Shown piece by piece: positions 24,671-42,447 of a stretch of DNA of 64,000 bases. The notes under the pieces were generated by a model, which saw only the letters and a program-made list of their open reading frames with translations, made no database searches and had not been told where the DNA came from. Each line of letters begins with the position of its first letter. The stretch's first letter is position 1. Source of the DNA: Actinomyces oricola (GTDB taxonomy: Bacteria; Actinomycetota; Actinomycetes; Actinomycetales; Actinomycetaceae). The translations under genes were made by a program, and so were the position numbers. The stretch spans positions 1 to 64,000 of the forward strand of contig NZ_RYFV01000018.1 in NCBI RefSeq assembly GCF_004104015.1, given 5' to 3'.

Positions 24671-26128
24671 GTGTCTTTACCGCCTATGACGCTGCCGACA
24701 ATCGAGCAGACCCTGCGCAGTCAGCCGCTTGCTGGTGCGCGCGCACGACTGGGCGCCCCAGTGCCCTGGCCGGAGATGCGCCGCGACCTACTCCAGTGGC
24801 TCATTTTCAATGACCTCGCGGCCGTGGCCCTGCCCACCTGGTTCCTGGTGCTCTCCAGCGGGCCGTCGGCGGCGTGGCCGGTCGGCCTGGTCGGGGCGCT
24901 CATGATCACCATGGTCTGGGTCAGCGGGGGCCTGGGGGTCGAGGCCGTCGACCAGGGGCGCTCCCGCACCGCGCACCTCATCCTGTGCGCGGTCATCGCC
25001 GCCCCGGCCGTCCTACTGCTCAACCAATTCATGCCCGGCGGCACCAGCGCCTGGACGCTCCTGGGCTGGCTGACGCTCCAGAGCGCACTCATGCTCATTG
25101 GCCGCAACGTGGAGGAAACCTGGCTGCACCGCCGCCGCATGGACGGCCACGCCCTGCGCCGCACTCTTATTGTCATGGGGCCCGGCGCCGAGCCCCTGCT
25201 CCAGCAGTTGCGCCGCCACCCCGCCGACGGCTTCCTCATTGTCGGCTACGTCTCCTCGGGGAATATGGGATCGCCCCACAAAGCCGACCCCGTTCGCGGC
25301 ACCCGCCATATTGCTCAACTGGTGCGCGCCGAGCGCATTGACGTGGTCATGACCGTGGGCGCCGTCGCCCCCGCCGACCTCATTACCCTCATGCGCGGCC
25401 TGGAGGGCTCCCGGGCACGGCTGGTCGTGGCGCCCGGGCTCCAGGACGTCGAGCCCAACCGCATGCGCGGACTGCCGGTCACCCACGGGTGGACGGGTTT
25501 GATCGCCGTGCGCACCCGCCGCACGCGCGAGATCGGCAAGATGATCCTCGACCGGGTCGTCGGCGCGCTCCTGCTGGCCATTGCCCTGCCGGTCCTGGCC
25601 GTCGCCGCCCTGGCCATCCGCCTGGAATCACCGGGCTCCCCCTTCTACAAGCAGACCCGCGTAGGCCTGGGGGGCAAGCACTTCACCATGTGGAAGCTGC
25701 GCTCAATGTACATTGACGCCGACGCCCGCCGCGCCGCCCTGGTGGCCAAGGGCGGGGACGCCGGCAACAAGGTCCTGTTCAAGGACAGCGCTGATCCCCG
25801 CATTACCCGGGTGGGCCGCCTGCTGCGACGCACCTCCCTGGACGAACTCCCCCAGCTCATTAATGTCGTCACCGGTGAAATGAGCCTGGTCGGCCCGCGC
25901 CCGGCACTGCCCCAGGAGGTCGCCCAGTATGATGCCGAGGCCCGCCGCCGACTGCTGGTGCGCCCCGGCATGACCGGCCTGTGGCAGGTTTCCGGCCGAT
26001 CGGACCTGTCCTGGGAGTCCACCGTCGCCCTGGACCGCCACTACGTGGACAATCGCTCCGGCTCCCTGGACGCCAGCATTCTGGCCGCCACACTCCGGGC
26101 CGTCGTCGGCGGCAAGGGGGCCTACTGA
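24671..26128 (+). CDS. Priming sugar transferase (WbaP/WcaJ-type polyprenyl phosphate transferase)
   Basis: About 485 residues. Four or five N-terminal helices are followed by a nucleotide-binding-like region (TLIVMGPGAEPLLQQLRRHP) and a final membrane helix (VVGALLLAIALPVLAVAALA). The C-terminal bacterial sugar transferase domain is complete: SPFYKQTRVGLGGKHFTMWK, then LRRTSLDELPQLINVVTGEM and SLVGPRPALPQEV. It moves a sugar phosphate from a UDP-sugar to undecaprenyl phosphate and so starts the polysaccharide unit. The GTG at 24671 is chosen for the GGAG six bases upstream. Its stop overlaps the next start by 1 bp. Confidence 0.92.
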   Translation: MSLPPMTLPTIEQTLRSQPLAGARARLGAPVPWPEMRRDLLQWLIFNDLAAVALPTWFLVLSSGPSAAWPVGLVGALMITMVWVSGGLGVEAVDQGRSRTAHLILCAVIAAPAVLLLNQFMPGGTSAWTLLGWLTLQSALMLIGRNVEETWLHRRRMDGHALRRTLIVMGPGAEPLLQQLRRHPADGFLIVGYVSSGNMGSPHKADPVRGTRHIAQLVRAERIDVVMTVGAVAPADLITLMRGLEGSRARLVVAPGLQDVEPNRMRGLPVTHGWTGLIAVRTRRTREIGKMILDRVVGALLLAIALPVLAVAALAIRLESPGSPFYKQTRVGLGGKHFTMWKLRSMYIDADARRAALVAKGGDAGNKVLFKDSADPRITRVGRLLRRTSLDELPQLINVVTGEMSLVGPRPALPQEVAQYDAEARRRLLVRPGMTGLWQVSGRSDLSWESTVALDRHYVDNRSGSLDASILAATLRAVVGGKGAY

Positions 26129-26592
26129 TGCTCGTCGGTTACATTCCGGGAGGATTTGACATGCTCCATGTGGGGCACCTCAATATTCTCAAGGCCGCGG
26201 CCCAGCGCTGCGACCACCTCATTGCGGGCATTGCCACCGATGAGTCTTTGGAGCGCATGAAGGGCCGGGCCCCCATTGTGCCCCTCACTGAGCGCATGGC
26301 CCTGGTGGCGGCGCTGCGAATGGTCGACGAGGTAGTCCCCGACCACGACCAGGACAAGCGCCTGGCCTGGCGCAGTCGCCCCTTCGACGTCCTCTTCAAG
26401 GGCACCGACTGGAAGGGCACGCCCAAGGGCGAGAGTCTGGAGGCGCAGATGGCGGAGGTCGGGGCACGGGTGACCTACCTCCCCTACACTCCGACAACCT
26501 CCTCGACCATGCTGCGACGCACCCTCCTCCAGCAGGTCGCCGCCCGCAGCGACCACCAAGCAGGACAAGCAGGAGGGGCCGCATGGCGCTAA
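26128..26592 (+). CDS. TagD-like cytidylyltransferase
   Basis: About 154 residues with the nucleotidyltransferase fold of glycerol-3-phosphate and related cytidylyltransferases. The HxGH motif is present (GGFDMLHVGHLNILKAAAQR), as is a Lys-Gly-Thr-Asp-Trp segment and a C-terminal TPTTSSTMLRR that corresponds to the RTxGISTT motif. It probably makes a CDP-alcohol. The ATG at 26128 overlaps the stop of the priming transferase (TGATG) and its 3' end overlaps the giant surface gene by 10 bp. With the CDP-alcohol phosphatidyltransferase at 21916 it could form a two-step phospho-alcohol route. Confidence 0.87.
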   Translation: MLVGYIPGGFDMLHVGHLNILKAAAQRCDHLIAGIATDESLERMKGRAPIVPLTERMALVAALRMVDEVVPDHDQDKRLAWRSRPFDVLFKGTDWKGTPKGESLEAQMAEVGARVTYLPYTPTTSSTMLRRTLLQQVAARSDHQAGQAGGAAWR

Positions 26593-41576: not shown

Positions 41577-41664
41577 GCTCCTCCACCTCCGAACACGCCT
41601 GCCCGAGAACGCAGCAGACACCTGAGAACCCGACCGACTCTTTCATAGCACGAGCGCGTCCACC

Positions 41665-42447
41665 TTACGAACCGATAACGCACACACCATCGCCGAAGTA
41701 TGCGTGACGCCCATGGCGAACGAAGAGCGGTTGACCCGGGTCAATGCGGTGAACACCCCACTCATTCTCCACGTGGGTGCCATTGGTCGAGTCCAGGTCA
41801 GTGATCATGACCCCATGCAGAGTGGGGACTAGAAGCGCATGAGTCTTGGACACCGAGGAGTCATCGACCAGGATGGGGACGAGCCGGGCGTCGGGGTGCG
41901 AGGCGATCTGACTGGGTTGGCGCCCCACGACGGTGGGCCCTGTCAGGGCAATGAGGACCCCGTCACACACCAGGCTGCAGGCCGTGCCAGAGGCGGCGGC
42001 CGACGACAGCATCACTGTGCCGGCGAGGCGGTCGAGCCAGCTGCGCTCCCTGCCTTTAAAGACAATGCGCAGGAAGAAGACCAGGGGGGCGATGCCCGCT
42101 GTCGCCGCTGTCGCCAGCACCAGGAGAGCCGCCCGGTAGATGGCCGCCCACCCGGGGCGCGCCCCCTGGCGTGAAACGCGGCGCAGCCGCACCCCGGCAA
42201 TGGCGTCGCCGGGGGTGGCGCCGGTCAGCGCCTGAAGGAGCACCATGACCGCGAGTGTGGCAATCACCATGGCCGCGCACCCCAAGGCCCCCCATCGAAG
42301 GGTGAGCACCGCCACGAGGACCACCACAACGGTGTCTGCGAGCACCGCAATGACTCTTCGTGCCCTGGAAGCGGGCAGGAAGACAGAATGACGCTCGTCA
42401 ACCATCACAGGGTCAGCATAGTGAGGCCTGTGAGCGATATCCTCCAT
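41665..42447 (-). CDS. RDD-domain/FHA-domain membrane protein (second copy)
   Basis: About 260 residues from the ATG at 42447, or 246 from the ATG at 42405; neither has a strong ribosome site. The RDD part (ARRVIAVLADTVVVVLVAVL, GATPGDAIAGVRLRRVS, then LVLATAATAGIAPLVFFLRI) has three or four helices. The C-terminal FHA domain keeps VVGRQPSQ, SVSKTHALL and DLDSTNGTHV. Unlike the paralogue at 36220 it has no Pro/Ala linker. It lies 88 bp upstream of the FHA repeat gene, probably in one operon with it and the kinase. Confidence 0.85.
   Translation of the reverse strand: MEDIAHRPHYADPVMVDERHSVFLPASRARRVIAVLADTVVVVLVAVLTLRWGALGCAAMVIATLAVMVLLQALTGATPGDAIAGVRLRRVSRQGARPGWAAIYRAALLVLATAATAGIAPLVFFLRIVFKGRERSWLDRLAGTVMLSSAAASGTACSLVCDGVLIALTGPTVVGRQPSQIASHPDARLVPILVDDSSVSKTHALLVPTLHGVMITDLDSTNGTHVENEWGVHRIDPGQPLFVRHGRHAYFGDGVCVIGS

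Follow-up and report, generated by a model that had tools for sequence, protein, structure and literature searches.

The 64,000-nucleotide stretch analysed here (the window: positions 1 to 64,000 of contig NZ_RYFV01000018.1 in the Actinomyces oricola assembly GCF_004104015.1) carries a gene cluster of the PFNA type described in bifidobacteria, in which a Ser/Thr kinase, a giant protein with fibronectin type III (Fn3) and Ig-like domains, a DUF58 protein and a transglutaminase-like protein (TGM) are encoded together with FHA proteins and, in this case, directly behind two sugar-priming genes. No gene for a MoxR-type AAA+ ATPase and none for a PP2C phosphatase lies within this cluster, as an earlier note on this DNA had stated. 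The comparative data suggest, with a probability that we put at roughly 0.6, that the cluster is a conserved, exopolysaccharide-linked variant of the PFNA type, and that the MoxR encoded in a second, complete cluster of the same genome may serve both DUF58 proteins in trans.

A complete PFNA-type cluster in the same genome

The assembly to which the window belongs (2.93 Mb in 78 contigs, completeness 100, contamination 0.43%) was searched in full for MoxR and PP2C genes, and three strong MoxR genes, each adjoining a DUF58 gene, and three PP2C genes were identified. Two of the MoxR-DUF58 pairs, on contigs C76 and C67, are of other types, and the only MoxR of the PFNA type is encoded on contig C27 (positions 17836-18798), beside its own DUF58 gene, within a cluster that reads Fn3 (2,037 aa)-MoxR-DUF58-TGM-RDD-FHA-PP2C-FHA-kinase-FHA/FtsK. 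The possibility that MoxR and PP2C are missing from the whole genome was rejected on this basis, both being present on C27. The C27 and window clusters are alike in their DUF58 (47% identical), TGM (35%), Fn3 (42 and 36%) and kinase proteins (55% over 301 aligned positions). They differ in that C27 encodes MoxR, PP2C and an FHA-FtsK/SpoIIIE protein, has no sugar-priming genes on its contig, belongs to a separate clade in a tree of DUF58, TGM and kinase, and keeps the catalytic His of its TGM. Going by these similarities, the genome holds two members of one family, the full form on C27 and the sugar-linked form in the window. An origin of C27 by contamination was rejected on two grounds only, its GC content (0.704 vs 0.707) and the contamination value given above. 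A 497-aa gene near the end of C27 had no Pfam match.

Linkage to sugar-priming genes across Actinomyces

The distribution of the cluster was analysed in 49 Actinomyces genomes, with PFNA-type DUF58 proteins called at E ≤ 1e-40. The sugar-linked cluster with its DUF58 is present in 41 of them, and the locus was compared in the window and the 40 others, some of which (e.g. G156 and G112) are truncated at the end of a contig. In the window, open reading frame coordinates and a Pfam domain search place at its head a polyprenyl-phosphate hexose-1-phosphate transferase of the type that primes exopolysaccharide synthesis (forward strand, from 24665 with TTG or 24671 with GTG, both starts being equally possible, to 26128; Bac_transf 1.3e-61), which passes the TIGR03025 EPS_sugtrans cut-off with 343.7 vs 295.55 bits. 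It is followed by a cytidylyltransferase-like protein of the TagD/HldE/ethanolamine-phosphate type (26128-26592, forward strand; CTP_transf_like 2.3e-16), the nearest solved chain to which is 3elb and which is 75-85% identical in most relatives and 63-65% in three. The protein scores below the equivalog cut-offs for TagD (TIGR01518, 68 vs 165.4 bits) and HldE, and is here termed "TagD-like" only.

Of the 41 loci, 34 (among them the window) allowed the overlap between these two genes to be measured, and it is 1 bp in every one. The cytidylyltransferase-Fn3 junction falls between -131 and +6 bp in 33/41 loci, with a 4-bp overlap as the commonest value (23/41); these distances were counted from whichever start codon lay nearest to the preceding stop, a choice biased towards short values. 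The linkage is therefore not a matter of chance, and the sugar-priming genes are a conserved part of the cluster throughout Actinomyces. Conservation of the sugar-transferase/Fn3 junction in relatives had been put forward in the earlier note as a check, and the junction is indeed conserved. Insertions of about 3-4 kb separate the cytidylyltransferase and Fn3 genes in four genomes and of about 8 kb in three, and one locus is cut. The kinase lies downstream on the opposite strand in 38/38 placed loci (of 41). Beyond the genus, two loci of another genus group (L080 and L081) have the sugar transferase directly before Fn3, without the cytidylyltransferase.

The same note had listed six forward-strand genes, from the sugar transferase to an RDD-FHA membrane protein, with an overlap at every junction. 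The coordinates give its five overlaps of 1, 10, 16, 4 and 4 bp, but the giant Ig/Fn3 gene among the six is split between two frames. Overlaps of 10 and 16 bp are peculiar to the window genome, and contact between Fn3 and DUF58 is nonexistent in the 36 loci with MoxR. The note's conclusion that these genes must be translated as one unit goes too far, since such overlap suggests translational coupling and does not prove it. A consensus scan for promoter-like (1 vs 0.9 expected) and terminator-like sites (0 vs 4.4 expected) returned nothing above chance.

Loss of moxR and its retention elsewhere

A moxR gene is located between Fn3 and DUF58 in 36 of the 41 sugar-linked loci, which identifies its absence from the window as a local loss, and since both the C-terminus of Fn3 (...CTQK) and the start of DUF58 are intact at the window junction, the excision was clean. 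PP2C is encoded in 0/41 sugar-linked loci, so that its absence is ordinary for the type; PFNA-type PP2C (51-100% identical) is encoded elsewhere in 13 of the 49 genomes. The lack of MoxR and PP2C, treated in the earlier note as the mark of a separate kind of cluster, finds no support in that role, given the complete C27 paralogue with both and the MoxR of most related loci.

Five of the 41 genomes (the window genome, G180, G003, G164 and G131) have a sugar-linked cluster without MoxR, and each encodes a MoxR of the same type at another locus. In general, PFNA-type MoxR (at least 69% identical) is encoded in all 41 genomes with the DUF58, the G156 copy being a fragment at a contig end, and in none of the eight without it, the best MoxR of which is about 49% identical or less. 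A MoxR elsewhere that is always paired with this DUF58 had been named beforehand as an argument against the note's proposal, and at genome level such a pairing is what the counts give (41/41 vs 0/8).

The arrangement in G180, G003, G164 and G131 (hereafter the four-genome clade) is informative as to what was kept. Their single PFNA-type moxR follows rpoBC in the order rpoC-MoxR-RDD-FHA-PP2C, with a further FHA gene and with PP2C fragmentary in G003; Fn3, DUF58 and TGM were not found at this place, and the sugar-linked cluster keeps Fn3-DUF58-TGM. The same place, directly after rpoC, reads Fn3-MoxR-DUF58-TGM in G176, G183 and G193. Comparison of these rpoC loci hence indicates that the genes on both sides of moxR were lost and moxR was kept, of which the sugar-linked cluster is the mirror image. 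The converse is found in G197, where the sugar-linked cluster has MoxR and a remnant of the canonical cluster (PP2C, FHA, RDD and an Fn3 fragment) lacks MoxR, DUF58 and TGM; a further cluster in G197, the third, has a MoxR of its own. Clusters of this third PFNA-like type, with a MoxR 69-70% identical to that of C27, were observed in G197 (loci L202 and L201, which also take in the canonical remnant), G200 (C5:43122-45343) and G185 (C1:1539-3712). On the sequence comparisons made here, the absence of moxR from the window cluster is a loss within its lineage, with a MoxR available in trans.

Separation of moxR from its DUF58 gene was also analysed outside Actinomyces, in two sets of loci (L and G handles) whose Actinomyces members come partly from the same genomes, so that the sets were not summed. 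Among the best 80 matching loci in a collection of named genomes, 76 have MoxR beside DUF58, 3 are cut at a contig end and 1 is without MoxR; the latter belongs to an Arthrobacter metagenome-assembled genome (L184), where another cluster carries MoxR along with PP2C. Across 149 genomes of the order, DUF58 was located at 80 places, distributed over 71 genomes, and MoxR lies directly upstream at 75 of these. The exceptions are the window, G003, G346 (rearranged within the same cluster), G275 (adjacent MoxR under the cut-off) and G276, which has Fn3-DUF58-TGM-kinase on one contig and MoxR-FHA-PP2C on another. At least three separations of MoxR from DUF58 have thus occurred, one or two in Actinomyces, one in the Arthrobacter genome and one in G276, and a MoxR of this type was retained each time.

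The number of losses within Actinomyces was assessed on two trees inferred by a quick method, one from DUF58+TGM+kinase and one from rpoB+rpoC, G209 being missing from the rpoB tree. The former places the window beside G185 (Shimodaira-Hasegawa-like approximate likelihood ratio, SH-aLRT, 99) with the four-genome clade apart, the latter G185 beside the four-genome clade (97) with the window on its own, and the presence or absence of MoxR requires two changes on either. The two moxR genes of G185, one in each of two clusters, encode identical proteins and differ at 9/965 bases, counted over the reading frame and the three bases before it; the match begins three bases ahead of the start codon and ends inside the stop codon (L069 8808-9773 and L082 8589-9554, on strands oriented for comparison), and the flanks are unalike. 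By this pattern the cis moxR of G185 is a copy of its canonical one, through gene-sized conversion or re-insertion, and one loss followed by re-acquisition in G185 could account for the distribution. In G185 one and the same MoxR protein is encoded ahead of two DUF58 proteins with no more than 47.5% identity; the corresponding values in the other two-cluster genomes compared, six in number, are 80-87% for MoxR and 44-51% for DUF58. General exchange of MoxR between the clusters was rejected, separate clades not being rejected by the approximately unbiased (AU) test (p 0.19-0.35).

A frame break in the Fn3 gene

The giant Fn3/Ig gene of the window is divided over two overlapping forward-strand frames. 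The first (26583-29819) encodes an N-terminal membrane anchor, recognized by eye, a beta-propeller and Big_9 repeats, and the second (29563-32610) Big_9 and two fn3 domains with a C-terminal domain, ending ...CTQK, that is similar in relatives. The frames part at a tract of eight C (29545-29552, forward strand), 3' of which the first leaves its homologous frame. This is the sole run of at least eight C or G in the window, and in none of the relatives shown is there a C run at the frame break. Both frames are stop-free and can be aligned to the Fn3 proteins of relatives at 43-67% identity. In 36 of 40 relatives Fn3 is one open frame of 1,920-2,140 residues; of the remaining four, one locus is cut and three (G203, G207 and G208) are broken in Fn3 and in other cluster genes. 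In the four-genome clade Fn3 is a single long frame, at 1,951-2,064 residues, and the shortest of these, in G131, may be cut early. A conserved programmed frameshift was rejected because of the single open frame and the missing run in relatives. A sequencing error, a recent mutation or a phase-variable tract are possible origins of the break.

DUF58 fold and transglutaminase residues

The DUF58 protein (32595-33950, forward strand) is predicted to consist of two N-terminal helices, probably transmembrane, an Ig-like domain and a domain with a vWA-like fold. In a second comparison, the vWA-like domain of the structural model had the MIDAS domain of midasin as its top match, and NorD followed among the next entries, level with many vWA domains to which it is not related; a plain Foldseek search with the model had no vWA entry among the 50 matches listed. 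The TgpA-like TGM (33947-36223, forward strand; Transglut_core 1.9e-19, region at 35144-35653) lacks the Cys-His-Asp triad, the catalytic Cys and His being Asp and Ser in its alignment to TgpA (6g49). The Cys site holds D or A in 40/40 sugar-linked Actinomyces rows, D in 9/9 canonical rows and D or E in all 58 rows from other genera that have a residue at this position, and the His site holds H in 0/40, 9/9 and 55/58, respectively; three Actinomyces loci (L169, L175 and L181) were kept apart from the rows of other genera. The missing catalytic residues argue against protein cross-linking as the role of this protein.

Remaining cluster genes and the adjoining polysaccharide locus

The cluster is completed by RDD-FHA membrane protein 1 (36220-37569, forward strand) and, on the reverse strand, by a Pkb2-like Ser/Thr kinase (37690-39162; Pkinase 2.6e-39, with one transmembrane segment and a C-terminal outer part by eye), a Pro/Ala-rich repeat protein with a C-terminal FHA domain (39159-41621; FHA 1.9e-5, with a zinc-ribbon-like segment by eye) and RDD-FHA membrane protein 2 (41665-42681), both RDD-FHA proteins being assigned from Pfam domains. 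The three opposite-strand genes agree with their earlier description. Tandem repeats within FHA protein genes, of 207 bp at 40150-40630 (2.3 copies at 91%) and of 18/36/72-bp units at 36971-37161, code for Pro/Ala-rich linkers.

The genes upstream of the sugar transferase form an exopolysaccharide locus, with a Wzx-like flippase (22682-24043, reverse strand; Polysacc_synt 1.2e-8) and a CDP-alcohol phosphotransferase (21916-22644, reverse strand; CDP-OH_P_transf 1.9e-9). The flippase adjoins the sugar transferase in 15 relatives, the stretches fetched from the others being mostly too short to tell, and the CDP-alcohol phosphotransferase is also found in the four-genome clade. This enzyme and the cytidylyltransferase-like protein are both encoded near the priming transferase, which suggests decoration of the polymer with a CDP-activated polyol or similar. 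At the other end of the window (59000-64000), approaching the contig end, the GC content declines from about 0.70 to 0.57-0.60, and no long convincing open reading frame was seen there.

Proposed mechanism and alternative explanations

In the model that we favour, the kinase and the Fn3 protein, with its anchor, beta-propeller and Ig and fn3 repeats, would be the outward-facing parts of a system in which DUF58, the pseudo-transglutaminase and the RDD-FHA proteins may form a membrane complex with phosphorylation as its readout. From the cytosol, an AAA+ ring of MoxR would remodel this complex through DUF58, and phosphorylation of MoxR by the kinase, as reported for bifidobacteria, would link the signal to the chaperone. 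The start of exopolysaccharide synthesis is a likely output or partner, because the priming transferase and cytidylyltransferase genes overlap the cluster, and the conserved linkage makes control of polymer priming by phospho-signalling plausible. After the clean loss of moxR in the window lineage, the PFNA-type MoxR of C27 would most likely serve both DUF58 proteins. We give somewhat less than even odds to the broader proposal that one MoxR serves two DUF58 complexes, canonical and exopolysaccharide-priming, with DUF58 as the specificity part and MoxR as an exchangeable hub; if true, lineages would be free to drop or relocate moxR repeatedly.

Several observations weigh against trans use of MoxR. 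The MoxR of the window genome still has its own DUF58 on C27, so that trans use in this genome is argued by analogy with the four-genome clade, and in that clade MoxR may be kept for its RDD, FHA and PP2C neighbours, not for DUF58. The losses in Actinomyces number one or two, the cis moxR of G185 could have been re-acquired, and outside G185 exchange of MoxR between clusters lacks statistical support. The 41-to-0 association is derived from related genomes, in which as few as two changes, instead of eight, would account for those lacking the system on the rpoB+rpoC tree (from which one of the eight is missing), and a PFNA-like MoxR (E ≤ 1e-100) unaccompanied by a DUF58 at E ≤ 1e-45 occurs in 5 of the 149 genomes of the order. 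The Fn3 frame break, furthermore, could mean a decaying copy without need of MoxR.

Such decay, in which the window cluster has lost moxR, broken its Fn3 frame and ceased to work, would fit the break at the C tract, the moxR loss and the complete paralogue on C27, but we judge it improbable: the other eight genes are unbroken with a third-position GC of 0.74-0.88, the two Fn3 frames are stop-free and alignable to relatives, the terminal branch of the window in the DUF58+TGM+kinase tree is not long (0.3 vs 0.6 for G185), and the four-genome clade, likewise without cis MoxR, has Fn3 as one long frame. We are equally doubtful that the sugar-linked DUF58 complex is now independent of MoxR, the latter being kept for other partners (its own DUF58 or RDD/FHA/PP2C). 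The four-genome clade, with MoxR beside RDD-FHA-PP2C and no adjoining DUF58, agrees with such independence; the co-occurrence of DUF58 and PFNA-type MoxR, the loss of genes on both sides of a retained moxR, and G197, with MoxR in its sugar-linked cluster and none in a canonical remnant that keeps PP2C, FHA and RDD, do not. Rather unlikely, though less so than these two, is co-location of the sugar transferase and PFNA genes by position only, as unrelated units that have a promoter region in common where an exopolysaccharide locus ends. The seven genomes with 3-4 or 8 kb between cytidylyltransferase and Fn3 speak for it, as do the clusters of other families, which have no sugar transferase within fetched flanks of at most 10 kb; the frequent 4-bp coding overlap, the short junction in most loci and the two genomes from another genus group that have the sugar transferase immediately ahead of Fn3 speak against it.

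Comparison with known systems

No literature on Actinomyces DUF58 or on an Actinomyces PFNA cluster was found in a search largely without subscription literature; papers on MoxR and Actinomyces were off topic by title, and those on MoxR and DUF58 include some that treat or mention the bifidobacterial PFNA cluster. According to the available text of PMC8430577 and PMC6803598, the bifidobacterial cluster comprises pkb2, fn3, aaa-atp, duf58 and tgm in a fixed order, and phosphorylation of the cluster's MoxR by its kinase has been reported. The claim that PFNA clusters normally include both MoxR and PP2C holds for MoxR, which is part of this definition, but not for PP2C, which that text places in some bifidobacterial species only. 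The window cluster is similar in its homologues of kinase, Fn3, DUF58 and TGM, which were assigned from their domains and their resemblance to the C27 proteins, not to bifidobacterial sequences, in its FHA proteins and in the succession of Fn3, DUF58 and TGM. It departs from the bifidobacterial cluster in having no cis MoxR and a kinase on the opposite strand, so that the fixed gene order is broken, and in its RDD-FHA proteins, the lack of PP2C and the priming sugar transferase and cytidylyltransferase in front, a linkage that provides a measurable candidate output for the cluster.

With TgpA (6g49), the window TGM shares an alignable Transglut_core, without the catalytic Cys and His; the C27 TGM also has TgpA_N. 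For the mycobacterial MoxR-DUF58 pair, the available text of a 2025 review (PMC12067865) states that the functional relationship is not clarified by evidence. The vWA-like domain modelled for DUF58 invites comparison with MoxR-vWA pairs (RavA-ViaA, NorQ-NorD, midasin) and with MoxR-vWA ternary systems, as described in the available text of PMC7159879; unlike in those pairs, the proposed MoxR partner of the window DUF58 is not encoded next to it. MoxR and DUF58 genes being commonly adjacent, the lineages in which they are split and MoxR is kept constitute natural experiments on this partnership.

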